Source: Paludibacteraceae bacterium (GTDB taxonomy: Bacteria > Bacteroidota > Bacteroidia > Bacteroidales > Paludibacteraceae). Taken from it: a stretch of DNA of 53,609 nucleotides. The translations under genes and the position numbers were made by a program. Location of the stretch: contig JAFYSB010000009.1 in NCBI GenBank assembly GCA_017546705.1, positions 1-53,609 on the forward strand, written 5' to 3'. This document shows positions 1 through 48,271 of the stretch, piece by piece (the stretch's first letter is position 1; each line of letters starts with the position of its first letter). The notes below the pieces were generated by a model. It saw only the letters and a program-made list of their open reading frames with translations, was not told the origin of the DNA and made no database searches.

Positions 1-142
1 TTGTATGTATTTTTCAAAAAAACGACTGATATTCAATTGATTGTGACGAATGGGGTAATTGCGCTTTCATCCCATTGTGTTCGCTCAATCGGTACTTACC
101 CCTGCACGAAATTTGAATAAGAACCGTCTATCCCTTATCAAT

Positions 143-197
143 TACGTAGGATATACGTAACATATACGTAGGATATACGTAAGATATACGTAACATA
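143..197. repeat. 11-bp-period array of TACGTA palindromes (copy 1)
   Basis: TACGTA occurs at 143, 154, 165, 176 and 187, so the pitch is exactly 11 bp. The five-base linkers are GGATA, ACATA, GGATA, AGATA and ACATA. The array is preceded by ATCAAT. A second five-unit array with the same core, pitch and flank lies at 22987-23036 in inverted orientation. Both lie about 105-130 bp upstream of the -33 element of a tRNA promoter. The function is unknown; repeated protein binding on one helical face, or a structural repeat, are possibilities. Confidence 0.9.
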
Positions 198-468: not shown

Positions 469-552
469 GCCCAGATGGCGGAATCGGTAGACGCGCTGGT
501 CTCAAACACCAGTAGGTTCACCCCTGTGCCGGTTCGACCCCGGCTCTGGGTA
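469..552 (+). tRNA. tRNA-Leu (anticodon CAA)
   Basis: The cloverleaf can be drawn directly. Acceptor GCCCAGA (469-475) pairs with TCTGGGT (545-551), with discriminator A552. The anticodon arm is CTGGT-CTCAAAC-ACCAG, giving anticodon CAA. There is a long variable arm and a T arm with the TTCGA loop. The CCA end is not encoded. It reads UUG leucine codons. Confidence 0.95.
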
Positions 553-554
553 CA

Positions 555-16571: not shown

Positions 16572-16648
16572 CCTCTTTCTTTCCCCTTACCTGCCCCCTA
16601 TCCGCATAGGAACTTCATAGGAACCTCATAGGAACTTCATAGGAACTT
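16572..16648. repeat. 11-bp-period array with four CATAGGAACTT units
   Basis: CATAGGAACTT, CATAGGAACCT, CATAGGAACTT and CATAGGAACTT run from 16605 to 16648. Three more degenerate units in the same register precede them (CCTCTTTCTTT, CCCCTTACCTG, CCCCCTATCCG). The adjoining 16537-16571 is a block of 7-bp repeats. Confidence 0.85.
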
Positions 16649-16804
16649 CGCCGTATCATCACCATGAGATCTAGGGCATCCTATAGGCACAGAGTGTCGT
16701 CCAACAGCCATTCGATCTTCCCATGCACACTTGCCTCTAAACATCAAACTGTTGCGGCTTTGTTGTCTCTTATAAACTGAAAAATGCATACAAAGCGCAT
16801 TTTT

Positions 16805-22251: not shown

Positions 22252-22965
22252 TTATTTTTTAAATAAGTTTTTTACGCAAACGGTTGCAGCATCAACTCGA
22301 AAATCGACTCCCCAACCTGCATAATCAAGGTGATAAACTCGCTCTGAATCAGTCTGATAAGCCGGACGAGGGTCTTGAGTTAGGATTTCTCGTAAAGCAT
22401 TCCATGGACAAGATTGCTCAATTGCATTTTTTAACATATCTTCATCAATCTGCACAGCCAAGCAATAATCCTTCGTAGCTTCCGCAAAGCCACTCTTTGT
22501 TTCAGGACGGCAATCCGAAAATGCCAAGTAAGGCTTGATATCATAAATCGGTGTACCATCCAACAAGTCCGCCCCCGAAACAACTAATGCCAAACCTTCG
22601 TTCGGTGTTTCCTCAACACGAAGCAGTTTCACGCTGGTCAATCCTATGGGATTTGGGCGGAAAGGCGAGCGCGTTGCAAACACTCCCATACGCTTATTTC
22701 CACCTAATCGCGGCGGACGCACCGTTGGACTCCAATCCAATTCCTCACATTGTGCTTCATTTCCTTTTTGCCTTATCGTTTCATGAAACCCCCAAAGCAA
22801 CCATAAATGCGAATAATCTTCTATCCCACGCAATGCCTCGCGCACGCGATATGCGGGCGCGAATATTATATGTGTCTCTATACACGAATCTTCTCTGCTT
22901 TGGCGTGGAATACCAAATTTCTGCGAGAAACCATTGCGAGCATATGCTATAACCTTTAGTTTCAT
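22252..22965 (-). CDS. trmO: tRNA (N6-threonylcarbamoyladenosine37-N6)-methyltransferase TrmO
   Basis: A 237-residue protein of the TsaA/YaeB/TrmO family. The beta-barrel methyltransferase core shows YSHLWLLWGFHE, RPPRLGGNKRMGVFATRSPFRPNPIGLT (split here: RPPRLGGNKRMGVF then ATRSPFRPNPIGLT) and GADLLDGTPIYDIKPYL, the SAM and tRNA binding signature. It methylates t6A at position 37 of tRNAs such as tRNA-Thr. The start at ATG 22965 is preceded, 22 nt away, by the second TACGTA array, and no standard promoter is visible. It is divergent from tRNA-Phe. Confidence 0.93.
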   Translation of the reverse strand: MKLKVIAYARNGFSQKFGIPRQSREDSCIETHIIFAPAYRVREALRGIEDYSHLWLLWGFHETIRQKGNEAQCEELDWSPTVRPPRLGGNKRMGVFATRSPFRPNPIGLTSVKLLRVEETPNEGLALVVSGADLLDGTPIYDIKPYLAFSDCRPETKSGFAEATKDYCLAVQIDEDMLKNAIEQSCPWNALREILTQDPRPAYQTDSERVYHLDYAGWGVDFRVDAATVCVKNLFKK

Positions 22966-22986
22966 TGCTTTAATACTGCTGTATCC

Positions 22987-23036
22987 TACGTATATGTTAC
23001 GTATATCTTACGTATATCCTACGTATATGGTACGTA
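22987..23036. repeat. 11-bp-period array of TACGTA palindromes (copy 2)
   Basis: TACGTA occurs at 22987, 22998, 23009, 23020 and 23031, exactly 11 bp apart. Read on the minus strand the array begins ATCAATTACGTA, like copy 1 at 143-197, and its linkers 2-4 (GGATA, AGATA, ACATA) equal linkers 3-5 of copy 1. It lies between the divergent trmO and tRNA-Phe genes. Confidence 0.9.
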
Positions 23037-23167
23037 ATTGATAGCGGATTGACATTACAAATTCACGTGATTTATTGCTTATAGGGCACAAAATTAGTAT
23101 TTTTTTCTGATATTTTCACACTTTTTAGGTAATAAATCTATATTTTTATAAAAAAATCGTCAAAATA

Positions 23168-23199
23168 TTTGGTCAGTTCAAAAAAAAGCAGTACCTTTG
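23168..23199 (+). promoter_or_regulatory. Promoter of tRNA-Phe
   Basis: TTTG at 23168-23171 and TACCTTTG at 23192-23199 are 20 bp apart. The surrounding 40 bp equal the tRNA-Leu promoter region, including the spacer. The tRNA begins about 18 nt after the predicted start site, far closer than in tRNA-Leu. Confidence 0.85.
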
Positions 23200-23223: not shown

Positions 23224-23296
23224 GGTGCCATAGCTCAGTTGGTAGAGCAAAGGACTGAAAATCCTTGTGTCCCCGGTTCGATTCCTGGTGGCACCA
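23224..23296 (+). tRNA. tRNA-Phe (anticodon GAA)
   Basis: A 73-nt cloverleaf. Acceptor GGTGCCA pairs with TGGCACC, with discriminator A23296. The D arm is GCTCAGTTGGTAGAGC, the anticodon arm is AGGACTGAAAATCCT with GAA in the loop, and the T arm is CCCCGGTTCGATTCCTGG. The CCA end is not encoded. Confidence 0.96.
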
Positions 23297-23297
23297 C

Positions 23298-26416: not shown

Positions 26417-28215
26417 GTGAGAATCTAAAAAATACAATTTTGCGCTTTGCCATCGTATTTGTAGTGATTGCATTGTTGTTTGTTGTGGTGTTTGTCCGTA
26501 TCATCACCATTCAGACCGTACAGCGCGATCGTTGGGAGGGTTTGGTGGACAAGCGCGAGTCTAATTATAAGACTATCAGAGCAATACGTGGCAATATATT
26601 CGATTGCGATGGGCGATTATTAGCAAGCAGTGTGCCTCAATATAGCATTCATATGGATACACGTGTAGAGGCATTGCATATGGAGCAAGGTGAATTATTT
26701 TGGTCGCATGTGGATAGTATTGCCGAAGGATTGAGCAGGATAGTTGGCGATCAAACGAAAGAAGAATATCGCAAACGCATGGTAGATGCCTATCGTAGCA
26801 ACAAGGGAAGAGGACGTTATGTTCGTTTGAGTAATGAGCGCATATCTTACACCCAGTTAAAAGAAATAAAACAACTGCCATTGATTCGCCGTGGTGTATA
26901 TAAGAGCGGATTCTATGCGGAAGATTTGAACTTACGCGTAAAACCCTTTAATAGTCTGGGAAGCAGAGCTATAGGCAATATATATGCAGCAAGCGGAGAG
27001 GCTAAATCGGGTTTGGAAATGCGATTTGACTCCTATTTGCGAGGCGAAGATGGTATGAGCGTGCGCCAGAAGATTGCTGGTGGTTGGCAGAATGTGCCTA
27101 TTCGCGAAGCAAAGAATGGCTGTGATATCTACACCACGTTTGATGCCAATCTGATGGATATTTGCGAAACAGCACTCCGTAAACGTTTGGAACATACCCG
27201 AGCGGATTGGGGTTGCGTGATTTTGATGGATGTGCATACAGGTGAGATTAAGGCGATGAGTAATCTAGATCGTGGAGATGATGAGCAGTATTATGAAGTA
27301 GCCAATCACGCGGTTATACGTATGGAGCCTGGTTCGACTTTTAAGACCATTTCGATGATGGCAGCGTTGGATGATGGCAAGGTAGAGATGGATGATACCA
27401 TCCGTGTTTATAGAAATGGGTGGTCATATCATGGCTCAAAACACACCGATGCACACCCTGCGGATACAATCTATAATATTCGTCAAGCGATGGCTGTAAG
27501 TAGTAATATCGCTTTGGCCAAAATAGTGACAGAGGGCTATGGTGGCAGCGCAAAGAAGTTTGTTAAAAAACTGAAAAACATGGGCTTATGCGATAGTGTG
27601 GACTACACCATCCCTGGTGCAAAGCAAGCATTGATCAATGTGCCCAATGATACGGTGACTATCTCGAAGATGGCTTATGGCTATTCGGTGGAGTTGAGCC
27701 CGCTGCAAATGCTGACGTTCTACAATGGTATTGCTAATGACGGAAAGATGATCACTCCTCTAATAGTCAAAGAGATACGCAAAAATGGAAAAGTAATCGA
27801 GGAGTTTGAGAGTAGTGTGATCAGAAGTAGCATGTGTAGTGATGCTACGCTGGAAAGCATACGCGAATGCTTGCATGATGTAGTGTGGAATGATACGCTG
27901 GGAACAGCATCTGTCAACCCTTGGGGTACACGTAAGGCACAGAGTGATTTGGTGGCAATAGCAGGTAAGACGGGTACGGCACAAATTTTGGAAAAAGGTT
28001 ATAGCAATCGCCGTCACCGTATGTCGTTTGTAGGATATTTCCCTGAGGAGAATCCACAATACACCTGTATTTGTGTGATCCACGGACCGCAATGGCCATA
28101 CGATGCGGGTATGGACTGCGGTAGTGTGGTACGACACATCGCCGAAAAGACTATGGCGTATGCGGGAGAATATGTGATTAAGAATGGGGAACTGGTCATG
28201 GTGGTGAAGGAGTAG
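26413..28215 (+). CDS. ftsI: Penicillin-binding protein, septal transpeptidase (FtsI/PBP3 type)
   Basis: A 600-residue class B PBP that cross-links septal peptidoglycan. One membrane anchor (about 10-33) precedes the pedestal domain (RAIRGNIFDCDGRLLA near residue 56). The active-site motifs are STFK at 308-311 with the acylated Ser308, SSN at 363-365, and KTGTA at 519-523. The protein ends about 75 residues after KTGTA with no PASTA domain, whereas several Bacteroidota orthologues are longer and carry one. It works with FtsW, encoded 4.2 kb downstream in the same run. Confidence 0.94.
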   Translation: MSENLKNTILRFAIVFVVIALLFVVVFVRIITIQTVQRDRWEGLVDKRESNYKTIRAIRGNIFDCDGRLLASSVPQYSIHMDTRVEALHMEQGELFWSHVDSIAEGLSRIVGDQTKEEYRKRMVDAYRSNKGRGRYVRLSNERISYTQLKEIKQLPLIRRGVYKSGFYAEDLNLRVKPFNSLGSRAIGNIYAASGEAKSGLEMRFDSYLRGEDGMSVRQKIAGGWQNVPIREAKNGCDIYTTFDANLMDICETALRKRLEHTRADWGCVILMDVHTGEIKAMSNLDRGDDEQYYEVANHAVIRMEPGSTFKTISMMAALDDGKVEMDDTIRVYRNGWSYHGSKHTDAHPADTIYNIRQAMAVSSNIALAKIVTEGYGGSAKKFVKKLKNMGLCDSVDYTIPGAKQALINVPNDTVTISKMAYGYSVELSPLQMLTFYNGIANDGKMITPLIVKEIRKNGKVIEEFESSVIRSSMCSDATLESIRECLHDVVWNDTLGTASVNPWGTRKAQSDLVAIAGKTGTAQILEKGYSNRRHRMSFVGYFPEENPQYTCICVIHGPQWPYDAGMDCGSVVRHIAEKTMAYAGEYVIKNGELVMVVKE

Positions 28216-28249
28216 TGTTTAATGTTTAGTGTTTAGCGTTTAGTGTTTA
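28215..28249 (+). repeat. Five 7-bp repeats between ftsI and murE
   Basis: GTGTTTA, ATGTTTA, GTGTTTA, GCGTTTA and GTGTTTA run up to 5 nt before the murE start. The same motif precedes ruvB (35466-35482, minus-strand reading) and, inverted, fills the murD-ftsW spacer (32398-32413). Confidence 0.85.
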
Positions 28250-28254
28250 GAGAT

Positions 28255-31064: not shown

Positions 31065-32399
31065 ATGAAAAGAATTGTTGTTTTAGGTGCAGGCGAGTCG
31101 GGTACAGGGGCTGCCATATTGGCAAAAAGCAAAGGTATGGACGTCTTTGTGAGCGATATGGGAACTATTTCTCCCGTGTACCAAGCCCTGCTTGACCAGC
31201 ACCAAATTGCTTGGGAGTCGGGCAAACATACGCCCGAGTTCATCCTCAATGCCGATGAGGTGATTAAGTCGCCTGGCATTCCATTGACCGCACCTCTCGT
31301 GAAACAACTCATTGAGCAGGGTACACCTATCCTTTCGGAGATTGAGTTCGCCGCGCGTTTTACCCGTGCCAAGATGATTTGTATCACGGGTTCGAATGGT
31401 AAAACCACAACCACCTCACTGATTTTTGATATGCTCCGCCGTGCAGGATTGGACGTCGGATTAGCGGGCAATATCGGCAACTCACTAGCATTGCAAGTGG
31501 CGCAAGCAGATCATGCCTACTACGTGATAGAGCTCTCGTCGTTCCAATTGGACAACTGCTACGATTTCAAAGCAGATATTGCTATTTTGCTGAATATCAC
31601 GCCCGATCACCTGGATCGCTACGACCATCAGTTCCAAAACTATGTCGATGCTAAGTTCCGCATCACGCGCAACCAAACCAGCAAAGATGCGTTCATCTAT
31701 TGGAGCGAAGATCCAGTACTCAACCGCGAGATTGCACGCATACAGCCACAAGCTACCCTCTACCCTTTTGGCAGCAACGAGCAGAATGTGGCATACACCG
31801 ATGGCAGCCACTTGGTGGTGGCGAGCAAACCGGATGTAGCACCACTGCGCGTGCCATTGGATGAACTCAGCCTCAAGGGCAAGCACAATCAACTCAACTC
31901 CATGGCGGCAGGTGTGGCAGCTCAGATCTTGAATATCCACAACGATGTGATTCGCGAGAGTTTGCAGCAGTTTGCGGGTGTGGACCATCGCCTACAATAT
32001 GTAGCGACCATCCGTGGTGTGCGCTACATCAACGACTCCAAAGCCACCAATGTCAATTCCTGCTGGTACGCCTTGGAGAGCATGACCACTCCCACCCTAC
32101 TCATTCTCGGCGGCACGGACAAAGGCAACGACTATAGCGAGATAGATGCTTTGGTACAGGAGAAGTGCCACACACTCATCTTCATGGGTAAGGACAATAG
32201 CAAACTGATTCAGCATTTCGGTGCAATGGGCATGAAGTATATCTCCACCGACAACTTGCAAGATGCAGTGCAGGCAGCTTATCAGTCTGCTAACGAAGGA
32301 GATACGGTGCTGCTTTCGCCTTGCTGCGCAAGCTTTGACCTCTTCAAGAATTACGAAGATCGTGGCGAACAGTTTATGCAAGCGGTACGTACTCTCTAA
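31065..32399 (+). CDS. murD: UDP-N-acetylmuramoylalanine--D-glutamate ligase
   Basis: A 444-residue Mur ligase that adds D-glutamate. The N-terminal Rossmann-like loop is VLGAGESGTGAAILAKSKG (about 5-23). The ATP loop is CITGSNGKTTTTSL near residue 105. ELSSFQLDNC, NITPDHLDRY and the C-terminal YINDSKATN and GGTDKG are the usual conserved segments. It starts 2 nt after mraY. No insertion repeat is seen inside it, unlike several neighbours. Confidence 0.96.
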   Translation: MKRIVVLGAGESGTGAAILAKSKGMDVFVSDMGTISPVYQALLDQHQIAWESGKHTPEFILNADEVIKSPGIPLTAPLVKQLIEQGTPILSEIEFAARFTRAKMICITGSNGKTTTTSLIFDMLRRAGLDVGLAGNIGNSLALQVAQADHAYYVIELSSFQLDNCYDFKADIAILLNITPDHLDRYDHQFQNYVDAKFRITRNQTSKDAFIYWSEDPVLNREIARIQPQATLYPFGSNEQNVAYTDGSHLVVASKPDVAPLRVPLDELSLKGKHNQLNSMAAGVAAQILNIHNDVIRESLQQFAGVDHRLQYVATIRGVRYINDSKATNVNSCWYALESMTTPTLLILGGTDKGNDYSEIDALVQEKCHTLIFMGKDNSKLIQHFGAMGMKYISTDNLQDAVQAAYQSANEGDTVLLSPCCASFDLFKNYEDRGEQFMQAVRTL

Positions 32400-32422
32400 A
32401 CACTAAACACTAAACTGCACAT

Positions 32423-33698: not shown

Positions 33699-34445
33699 CT
33701 ACAATATCCCCATCACTTCTGACAGGTTGTGGACGATATATGTAGCCGTTTGGACTATTGTGTCTTGGTTCTTGGTTCCTTGCTCTTTGCTCTTTTTAAT
33801 CCATATCTGGTCAATGCCTGCATTGATCGCACCTTGGATATCCGAGCTCCACGAGTCGCCTATCATCACTACATCTTCGGCTTGCAAGCCATTCATGCGC
33901 AACGCCTCCTCAAAAATACGCGGATTGGGTTTCTGGCAACCCACTTCCTCGCTCAACACGATATGCGCAAAGCAGTCACGCAGTCCACTCTTGTCAAACT
34001 TCTCGTATTGCACTTCCACAAAACCATTGGTCACTACCGTCAGCGGGTATTTCTTCGCCAAATAACGCACCAACTCCTCCGCCCCTTCCAGCAAAGAGAA
34101 ATGTGCTGTGGTCATGTTCAAGAAATCCTCGCTCAACTGCTCTGCTAATACGCACAAGTTTTCACCTTTCACCTTTCCCTTTTCACCTTTCACCTTACTC
34201 CCATGCATCAGCGGATAGAAAAAGCGGTCGAAACTCAAATATTCTTTGGTCACAAGGTCTTTGCCGTATTTATCCCACAGTTCGATGTTATGCGGTTTGT
34301 AGAGAGCCACAAACTCCTCGTGCGAAGCAAAATAGTCGCTCAAATGGTATTTGTCATACATCTCATGGAGCGCCTGCTTAGCCGCCCCTATGAAATCCCC
34401 TATCGTATCATCCCAGTCAATAAAAACCGCTTTATATTGCTTCAT
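33699..34445 (-). CDS. HAD-family hydrolase, YjjG-like nucleotidase
   Basis: A 248-residue HAD phosphatase. Motif I is FIDWDDTIGDF near residue 8 (nucleophile Asp), motif II is VVTNGF, and motif III/IV are KPNPRIFEEA and MIGDSWSSDIQGAINAG. It resembles YjjG-type pyrimidine nucleotidases that dephosphorylate abnormal nucleotides. Two parts are made by 7-bp repeats: KVKGEKGKVKGE in the cap (34162-34196) and SKEQGTKNQD near the C-terminus (33759-33793). The start is ATG 34445, 1 nt after the ruvB stop; the longer frame would run into ruvB. It is the last gene of ssb-ABC-ruvB-HAD. Confidence 0.9.
   Translation of the reverse strand: MKQYKAVFIDWDDTIGDFIGAAKQALHEMYDKYHLSDYFASHEEFVALYKPHNIELWDKYGKDLVTKEYLSFDRFFYPLMHGSKVKGEKGKVKGENLCVLAEQLSEDFLNMTTAHFSLLEGAEELVRYLAKKYPLTVVTNGFVEVQYEKFDKSGLRDCFAHIVLSEEVGCQKPNPRIFEEALRMNGLQAEDVVMIGDSWSSDIQGAINAGIDQIWIKKSKEQGTKNQDTIVQTATYIVHNLSEVMGIL
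33759..33793 (-). repeat. 7-bp-period tract in the HAD gene (3' part)
   Basis: On the minus strand the tract reads AGAGCAA, AGAGCAA, GGAACCA, AGAACCA, AGACACA. It encodes S-K-E-Q-G-T-K-N-Q-D-T, nearly the same peptide as the tract in the ABC ATPase gene (S-K-E-Q-G-A-K-N-K-D-Q). Confidence 0.75.
34162..34196 (-). repeat. 7-bp-period tract in the HAD gene (cap region)
   Basis: On the minus strand five heptamers AAGGTGA, AAGGTGA, AAAGGGA, AAGGTGA and AAGGTGA total 35 bp and encode K-V-K-G-E-K-G-K-V-K-G-E. Confidence 0.8.
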
Positions 34446-36847: not shown

Positions 36848-36918
36848 GGAAGGTACTGGGAAAGTACTGGATGGTCATTGAATGGTAATGGAGTGGTATC
36901 GAGGTGGTTTCGAGAAAG
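36848..36918. repeat. 11-bp-period array upstream of ssb
   Basis: Six units are in strict register: GGAAGGTACTG, GGAAAGTACTG, GATGGTCATTG, AATGGTAATGG, AGTGGTATCGA and GGTGGTTTCGA, followed by GAAAG. Positions 5-6 of each unit read GT in all six units. Confidence 0.85.
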
Positions 36919-36954
36919 AAAGCGGAAAGATAGGGATTTAATAACACTTTTTCC

Positions 36955-45744: not shown

Positions 45745-46242
45745 TTAATTTTTCTCTTGAATCTCGGCAATTGTGTTGAAAACGCTGTTGTCTGCTACAC
45801 TCACTACGATTGGCATTTTGTTTTTGCGGGTGATGATGCAGACATCCATTGGGTCGGTAATCAAAGACAAGTGTTTGCCACATTCTTTGCAAGTAAACAG
45901 ACCAAGGTTACCAAAGAAGCCGCCTGCTCCTACAATACGGCTGGACTGAATACCATGTGGATAGTGCTCAATTTTCTCGATTTCATCGGCAGGAATATTG
46001 ATTTTCCAAGCGAGGAGGTGGATGTTGATAGCCTCCTGTGTCACAGTAAGTTTACGTGGGATAATTACCATACAGCTGAGTAAGGCAATGGCAACGATCA
46101 TGAAAGTGACCAATAGCATCACTTGCTTGGTTGTGTACCATTGATAAGCCATATAACCCATCGTGGCGAGGATAATGATACTGGCAATAATGGTCACAGA
46201 CTTGATTGCTGGACTCAATGGAAGGAAAGTGGTTGTTTGCAT
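45745..46242 (-). CDS. Small membrane protein with PH-like domain (paralogue B)
   Basis: A 165-residue protein. Two membrane helices (about 15-33 and 41-60) are followed by a beta-rich domain with IPRKLTVTQEAINIHLLAWKINIP (INIHLLAWKINIPADEIEKI), VGAGGFFGNLGLF and VCIITRKNKMPIVVS. This resembles bacterial PH-type domains found after membrane helices. A paralogue at 47774-48271 shares most of the C-terminal 90 residues. It starts 7 nt after an alpha/beta hydrolase gene, as the paralogue starts 8 nt after a GH13-like gene. The role is unknown. Confidence 0.75.
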   Translation of the reverse strand: MQTTTFLPLSPAIKSVTIIASIIILATMGYMAYQWYTTKQVMLLVTFMIVAIALLSCMVIIPRKLTVTQEAINIHLLAWKINIPADEIEKIEHYPHGIQSSRIVGAGGFFGNLGLFTCKECGKHLSLITDPMDVCIITRKNKMPIVVSVADNSVFNTIAEIQEKN

Positions 46243-47773: not shown

Positions 47774-48271
47774 TTAATTTCTTTCTTGTACTTCAGCAAC
47801 AGTGTTGAAAACGCTGTTGTCTGCTGTGCTCACTGCGATAGGTATTTTAGTCTTGCGAGTAATGACGCATACATTCGTAGGGTCTGTGATTAGGGATAAA
47901 TGTTTACCACACTCTTTGCTAGTGAATAATCCGAGATTGCCGAAATATCCACCCGCACCTACAATGCGATGAGCGTCTATACCATGTGGGAAGTACTCAA
48001 TTTTCTCGATTTCATCGGCAGGGATGTTGATTTTCCATGCCAACAGATGAATGTTTATATCTTTGTCCGTTACAGTCACCTTGCGTGGAATCATAGCAAT
48101 CGTTGCACCGATAATTACAACGAGCAATATGAGTACCCATAATAGCTGAGGTTGTTGGAGTTGTAACCATTCATAGACCATCATACCAATTGCGCCAAGC
48201 ATGATGATGGAGGCTAAAATGGTTATCCACCTGATGGACTTTGATAATGGAAGGAAAGAGGTTGTTTTCAT
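47774..48271 (-). CDS. Small membrane protein with PH-like domain (paralogue A)
   Basis: A 165-residue paralogue of the protein at 45745-46242, with the same two helices and the same conserved stretches (INIHLLAWKINIPADEIEKI, VGAGGYFGNLGLF, CGKHLSLITDP). The N-terminal helices differ more than the PH-like part. It starts 8 nt after the GH13-like gene and converges on the aroC fragment. The fixed arrangement, each copy just behind a secreted hydrolase-type gene, may reflect a membrane accessory role, but this is inference. Confidence 0.75.
   Translation of the reverse strand: MKTTSFLPLSKSIRWITILASIIMLGAIGMMVYEWLQLQQPQLLWVLILLVVIIGATIAMIPRKVTVTDKDINIHLLAWKINIPADEIEKIEYFPHGIDAHRIVGAGGYFGNLGLFTSKECGKHLSLITDPTNVCVITRKTKIPIAVSTADNSVFNTVAEVQERN

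Follow-up and report, generated by a model that had tools for sequence, protein, structure and literature searches.

Intergenic arrays of heptamers are known from cyanobacteria as STRR, and BOX elements are small, modular and likewise dispersed between genes. The parC site of plasmid R1 contains 11-bp repeats, a pitch of 11 bp being close to one helical turn. Insertion sequences (IS) of the ISL3 family produce an 8-bp target duplication.

TAACTGA heptamer direct repeats occupy many intergenic sites, often near start codons, with a patchy distribution that includes Bacteroidetes (MacGregor 2015, PMC4679880). The stbDRs of R388 are two sets of five 9-bp repeats separated by two-nucleotide spacers and bound by StbA (PMC3098194). 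REPs serve as targets of specific insertion sequences (PMC1525189).

Here we describe arrays of 11-bp units that are scattered between the genes of uncultured gut bacteria and, judged by their sequence, look like landing pads for one protein. Among the open-licence papers listed in literature searches, none describes these arrays.

Two arrays in one window

The window, i.e., the whole stretch of DNA that was analysed (53,609 nucleotides), belongs to a 2.1-Mb Bacteroidales genome, called here the home genome (G000). The pattern TACGTA-N5-TACGTA occurs in the window as eight unit pairs, four of them at 143-192 and the other four, in reverse orientation, at 22987-23036, versus none in 100 dinucleotide shuffles. 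Array 2, at 22987-23036, has five TACGTA cores at an exact 11-bp pitch and is a genuine, non-chance feature. The main features of the window are:

1-125, minus strand: end of an ISL3-type IS, with its terminal repeat at 104-125, 17 bp beyond array 1
126-142, minus strand: right module of array 1, ATTGATAAGGGATAGAC, the insertion point of the IS
143-192, minus strand: array 1, five TACGTA cores, linkers CT CC GT CC in its own orientation
469-553, plus strand: tRNA-Leu (caa), 276 bp from array 1
16605-16649, minus strand: 11-bp array of an unrelated unit, AAGTTCCTATG, with a purine-rich right edge
22252-22965, minus strand: trmO, tRNA methyltransferase O (Pfam TrmO_N, E 2e-41; TrmO_C, E 9.7e-09)
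22960-22986, plus strand: left module of array 2, keeping the 11-bp register, from alignment with other arrays of the home genome and G095
22987-23036, plus strand: array 2, five TACGTA cores, units TACGTATATNN, linkers GT CT CC GG
23037-23052, plus strand: right module of array 2, ATTGATAGCGGATTGA, equivalent to the module in which the IS inserted at other arrays
23089-23096, minus strand: promoter-like -7 box TAATTTTG, presumably of trmO, located beyond the array by eye from the consensus
23168-23199, plus strand: promoter-like boxes (TTTG ... TACCTTTG) that we take to be those of tRNA-Phe, by eye from the consensus
23224-23297, plus strand: tRNA-Phe (gaa), by ARAGORN
36872-36926, plus strand: degenerate 11-bp-phased G-rich units, like the far-left part of some TACGTA elements

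An earlier note, made from the letters of the window alone, had described the core, the 11-bp pitch, the count of five and the opposite orientation of the two copies, all of which the unit-pair search confirms; the ATCAAT/ATTGAT flank is indeed common to both arrays. The note also has the linkers match after a shift of one unit, which is true of two consecutive linkers only: read in the same orientation, copy 1 has CT CC GT CC and copy 2 has GT CT CC GG.

The gene start nearest to array 2 is that of trmO, 21 bp away, and the left module overlaps the start codon. Since the putative -7 box of trmO, read by comparison with the upstream region of G014, stands beyond the array, array 2 probably sits in the trmO 5' leader, as placed by eye. 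The tRNA-Phe gene is 187 bp from the array, and its presumed promoter boxes, again found by eye, stand between the two. In the 330 bp upstream of trmO, a TACGTA array is absent from 23 other species compared; G095 and G161, two nearer species outside that set, do have a TACGTA array upstream of trmO.

Beyond array 1, the contig end falls inside the IS. The G-rich units at 36872-36926 are close to the spot where G095 carries an array. Elsewhere in the window, two 300-bp stretches (45745-46044 and 47774-48073), 75% alike and overlapping 165-aa minus-strand ORF calls, are probably a duplicated gene.

Anatomy, distribution and turnover of the family

In the home genome, 79 unit pairs (57 on one strand of the contigs, 22 on the opposite strand) make up 24 arrays. 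The earlier note had taken the array as one of a defined family able to spread or be exchanged, and had named a lack of further copies as the case against it; with 24 arrays present, in both orientations and with recurring linker order, this part of its interpretation stands. The other part, an association with tRNA genes, does not. ARAGORN detects tRNA-Leu and tRNA-Phe as the two tRNA genes of the window, but a tRNA lies within 500 bp of just 4 of the 24 home arrays, and of 17 of the 119 loci tested overall; the link is incidental, and a tRNA-linked element was rejected on the home count.

When aligned on the core, the arrays share a left module, GGTATTCTCAGGTTAACAACTCGGTTATCC with variants, and a right module, ATTGACAGCGGAAAGA. 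Among lags 3-34, the top three in the 80 bp to the left of the arrays are 11, 22 and 33, and lag 11 ranks first in the 60 bp to the right; an array is thus the well-preserved middle of an extended series of 11-bp units. The linkers of TACGTA arrays are almost always CC, GT, CT or GG. Away from the arrays, the 11-bp periodicity of intergenic DNA is weak (lag-11 z 1.4 in the home genome, with a maximum of 3.4 in JAFTOD), and a general periodicity of this kind was rejected as an explanation on that ground.

Tandem Repeats Finder, run on 432 kb of the home genome (the window plus 20 stretches outside array regions), returned 110 rows, one of them double-listed, in which periods 7 (27 rows), 11 (21) and 12 (16) lead; both TACGTA arrays of the window are among the period-11 rows, and several rows consist of just two copies. 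Further 11-bp families of this genome, e.g. ATCACTAAAGA and AAGTTCCTATG, in some cases have a similar purine-rich right edge. Such unrelated 11-bp and 7-bp arrays point to a general tendency to form repeats of this sort. The 7-bp arrays (GTTTAGT, AGGTTAT and TTGACAG types), whose period is the commonest in the 432 kb, recur at 28213-28250, 34160-34196 and 32396-32415 of the window, at L222:4980-5027 and at L226:1629-1717.

Two longer repeats were also observed. One, of about 350 bp and 85-89% alike between copies, occurs on the left of some arrays but also at other places, in the home genome and its relatives (L035:2436-2800, L038:726-1075, L215:6614-6950, L224:1447-1807); it has no Rfam match. 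The other follows the right module at some arrays (L037:397-664, L040:3076-3280, L253:8680-8897), and in L040 a second right module comes after it.

The strict pattern, three TACGTATATNN cores, occurs in 12 of 178 genomes of the genus and, in a sample of 295 genomes of the order, in the home genome only; the named genomes among the matches listed are Bacteroidales or Paludibacteraceae MAGs. At the locus of a TetR-family gene, G014 and G102 have arrays of other units, TATCGTATATC and TACCGTATATC, with a related right module, and the broader pattern CGTRTATN4CGTRTATN4CGTR was devised on this basis. It matches 95 of the 178 genus genomes, and 38 of the 68 of good quality. The reversed control pattern matches 24 of 178, and no genome has more than 8 such matches, when the real pattern reaches 180; low counts in single genomes are therefore not to be trusted. 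In an order sample of 393 genomes, the broader pattern is found only in the home genome; two other genus members there lack it, as do all 390 genomes outside the genus, three of which are from other genera of the same family (the reversed control matches 4 of the 393). The arrays are, then, a genus-specific element, with lineages having their own unit flavour.

Plasmid and phage collections gave no match to the arrays; eight viral contigs that match a broad pattern contain plain repeats without the modules, and a phage or plasmid origin was rejected. One contig of a viral collection (L307) contains, at about 9616 on the reverse strand, ten TATCGTATATG units and then GTTAGGTATAT units, one of the unit flavours of the genus.

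Which positions of the unit are held was examined, with counts derived from overlapping windows, at 20 loci of other flavours. Arrays detected there by CGT alone have TAT at 98%, and those detected by TAT alone have CGT at 92-95%. Position 10 is a nearly fixed C (90-97%), values of 34-77% are seen at positions 1, 2 and 11, and either A or G at position 6. Detection by CGT alone mixes both strands in the palindromic TACGTA flavour and cannot be read there; in the TAT-only test, the home arrays have 75-95% at core positions. Across the genus, CGT and TAT hold while other positions vary.

Conservation is also seen between species. The home genome and G095 have about 80% gene identity, and share 46 contiguous identical base pairs at the trmO array and 44 at the TetR-gene array, while the nearby non-coding DNA hardly aligns. 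For 8 of the 24 home arrays, another species has both the array and matching DNA on both sides. For 58 array pairs whose matching flanks extend over 700 bp or more, some of them perhaps joined by a longer dispersed repeat rather than orthology, linkers agree at 129 of 146 positions where flanks are at least 93% identical, at 76 of 94 (85-93%) and at 109 of 142 (below 85%); core identity in these pairs is not evidence, because the search demanded cores. At other loci the array is present in one species and absent in the other (L041/L249 and L253/L232), or is present in both in opposite orientations (L051/L247). Many orthologous loci retain their array; others have gained or lost one. A TrmO tree of 32 rows places the home genome with G095 and G161 (support 97/90), and on it the TACGTATAT flavour requires five changes, at least three of them forced by well-supported branches.

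Identical neighbouring linkers are rare in the home arrays (7 of 66 versus 17.1 expected, P 0.001), as well as in JAFTOD (5 of 68; 16.7 expected), CAMEKM (3 of 53; 11.1), JAGALP (2 of 32; 6.1) and JALFYY (1 of 32; 7.5); three of the eight genomes tested, JALFGC, JAFTXV and JAKSNN, have no such deficit. The triple CT-GT-CC occurs 13 times in the home arrays, when the maximum of any triple in 500 shuffles is 6. The deficit speaks against recent local slippage and, together with the recurring triple, points to whole arrays having been copied, in the majority of the genomes though not in every one. Arrays thus seem to spread as ordered blocks copied between loci, a view supported, if indirectly, by the linker order.

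An ISL3-type insertion sequence at the right edge

The 22-bp terminal repeat of the IS has 21 copies in the home genome. Eight IS ends lie at the right side of TACGTA arrays, in or adjoining 8 of the 24; in seven cases the distance from the last core, whether intact or degenerate, is 17-18 bp, and in one it is 6 bp. For all eight there is a partner end with the same 7-9 bp at the junction (best match 8 bp six times, 7 bp once and 9 bp once), and two of the eight have the same two candidate partners. The IS at the arrays shows the 8-bp target duplication of the ISL3 family, and its transposase contains the DDE_Tnp_ISL3 domain (PF01610, E 1.4e-24) and the ISL3 zinc ribbon (PF14690, E 2.4e-09). 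Among the other five IS ends (L185, L189, L194, L186, L199), the first three adjoin other 11-bp repeats. A contig ends within 400 bp to the right of 9 of the 24 arrays, and the IS is found at eight of these nine, so that it accounts for most of these breaks. The arrays serve as a target of the ISL3-type IS, a clear case of an IS landing at one edge of a host repeat. The idea that the IS made or carried the array was rejected: a 44-residue end of the transposase matches 3 of the 178 genus genomes, the home genome included, and the other two have no strict TACGTA array.

Possible roles and relation to known systems

The arrays form a family with a common anatomy, a distribution within one genus, and partial conservation combined with turnover. 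By a simple ORF caller, 117 of the 121 arrays are outside called ORFs, and so are all 20 of the other flavours. The neighbouring genes, named by eye except for trmO and the TetR-family protein, are diverse, housekeeping and other chromosomal genes; as they share no function, no regulon is visible. Promoter-like sites of the two-box type are mostly directed away from the arrays. For 64 left-hand genes, a one-box site lies between array and gene in 26 and beyond the array in 10, with none found in 28; in the other-flavour set of 16 these numbers are 3, 3 and 10.

We tentatively prefer to see the arrays as dispersed genus-specific intergenic sites, iteron-like, which would take up one putative protein per helical turn. 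The element comprises three to seven 11-bp units between a degenerate left and a purine-rich right module, in one 11-bp register. Each unit (TACGTATATNN here; CGTRTAT and four freer bases genus-wide) may be the binding site of one sequence-specific DNA-binding protein. Spaced by one turn of the helix, neighbouring copies of the protein would all sit along a single face of the DNA and bind it cooperatively. Linker bases would be little read by the putative binder, the preferred unit would drift by lineage, and the candidate outputs are gene expression, nucleoid structure or both. This binding-site reading is suggested by the modules common to 24 arrays, the fixed core, the pitch of about one helical turn, the intergenic placing, the survival across species, the deficit of identical neighbouring linkers, the spread within the genus and the like layout of the R388 stbDRs. 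Gain, loss and differing orientation at orthologous loci count against it, as do the lack of a visible regulon, the unrelated 11-bp and 7-bp arrays of the same genome and the three genomes with no linker deficit. No array-binding protein was found, the neighbour tried as a candidate being the TetR-family protein. The latter was rejected as a dedicated binder: it is present in 165 of the 178 genus genomes, while the array in its leader is patchy, being present in some species, made of other units in G014 and G102, and absent in others. The protein is 98% identical in G014, which has no strict-pattern TACGTA array. More broadly, the TetR-family protein (G000:C33:25243-25857, L254) is 98% identical between the home genome, G014 and G096 and about 50% identical to that of G095, when TrmO is 77% identical to that of G014; judging from these sequences, recent exchange of the gene is possible.

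The main rival, close in likelihood to the binding-site model and only slightly less favoured by us, is a mutational or selfish repeat: 7- and 11-bp tandem repeats would form between genes and be copied by recombination or a putative transposase, with no host function, and the fixed core would be a relic of common descent and of exchange between arrays. The 110 tandem-repeat rows with many unrelated units, the gain, loss and inversion at orthologous loci, the scatter of the TACGTATAT flavour over the TrmO tree and the unrelated neighbouring genes all agree with it. It accounts less well for the separation of fixed and free positions within the same units, for arrays that outlast the surrounding non-coding DNA, and for a layout that is genus-wide yet absent outside the genus. 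An element acting in RNA, with sense-strand GATAYACG units in 5' leaders or between co-transcribed genes as a signal for protein binding, processing or translation, we consider improbable. GATAYACG is commoner on the sense strand between same-direction genes (33:14, a set that includes orthologues, and 10:2), and the arrays at trmO and the TetR-family gene appear to be in leaders. However, folding shows no excess of structure (over 44 arrays, z averages -0.53 on one strand and -0.39 on the other; about -1.0 on both strands for the home arrays and about 0 for other flavours), the Rfam matches are to tRNA only, and a one-box promoter-like site stands between array and right-hand gene in 42 of 53 scored cases (4 of 8 for other flavours), so that the array is not in the leader of that gene. 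RNA structure and known RNA families were rejected accordingly.

It is also unlikely, in our view, that the arrays organise or partition the chromosome, in the manner of dispersed centromere or nucleoid-occlusion sites and without regulating genes. In G095, with 25 arrays and 19 within-contig gaps, the coefficient of variation of the gaps is 0.45 versus 0.89 for random placing (P 0.00015), no gap is below 18.5 kb (P 0.001), and the layout resembles that of the R388 stbDRs; but the spacing test was made after the pattern was seen, used for some contigs the lengths given in records that G095 and G060 appear to match, and is a lead only. G060 gives P 0.37 for the variation and 0.07 for the smallest gap (10 gaps; 14 of 16 arrays, leaving out two that are alone on their contigs), and GC skew over 280 kb of G095 is too noisy to relate orientation to replication. 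There is a slim chance that the genus has its own centromere-like or nucleoid-anchoring system, with about 25 fairly evenly spaced arrays, one putative cooperative protein, and a specificity that would drift together with the target arrays in each lineage. If the arrays are binding sites, they offer a natural species series of unit sequence, copy number and position, in which the binder could be sought by co-variation. If they are functionless, a lineage can fill its intergenic DNA with helical-phase repeats that mimic regulatory sites, which is a useful caution.

Among described systems, the arrays resemble TAACTGA repeats and STRR in being many (24 here), intergenic and directly repeated, with varied neighbours, a frequent position near start codons and a patchy distribution. 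They differ in that the unit is 11 bp rather than 7 bp, with a constant core and a free linker, and in having modules on both sides, genus flavours and an IS that targets them. With stbDR and parC, the arrays share a 9-bp repeat plus 2-bp spacer, about five repeats per set and the 11-bp pitch. Unlike those plasmid sites, they are chromosomal and dispersed in about 24 copies beside chromosomal genes, with a different unit sequence, no partition operon seen and no plasmid location. By analogy, we take the R388 layout as the probable working mode of the arrays, not as a sign of family membership. Like REP, BIME and BOX elements, the arrays are dispersed small intergenic modules, and a specific IS lands in them (eight ends here). 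They lack the stable hairpin of REP and BIME (mean z -0.4 to -0.5, 44 arrays) and, in contrast to all three, have a helical-phase tandem core and no associated transposase established. The element found at the arrays is like the ISL3 family in its transposase domains and its duplications of 7-9 bp, and unlike it in its narrow choice of target, the right module of 11-bp arrays.
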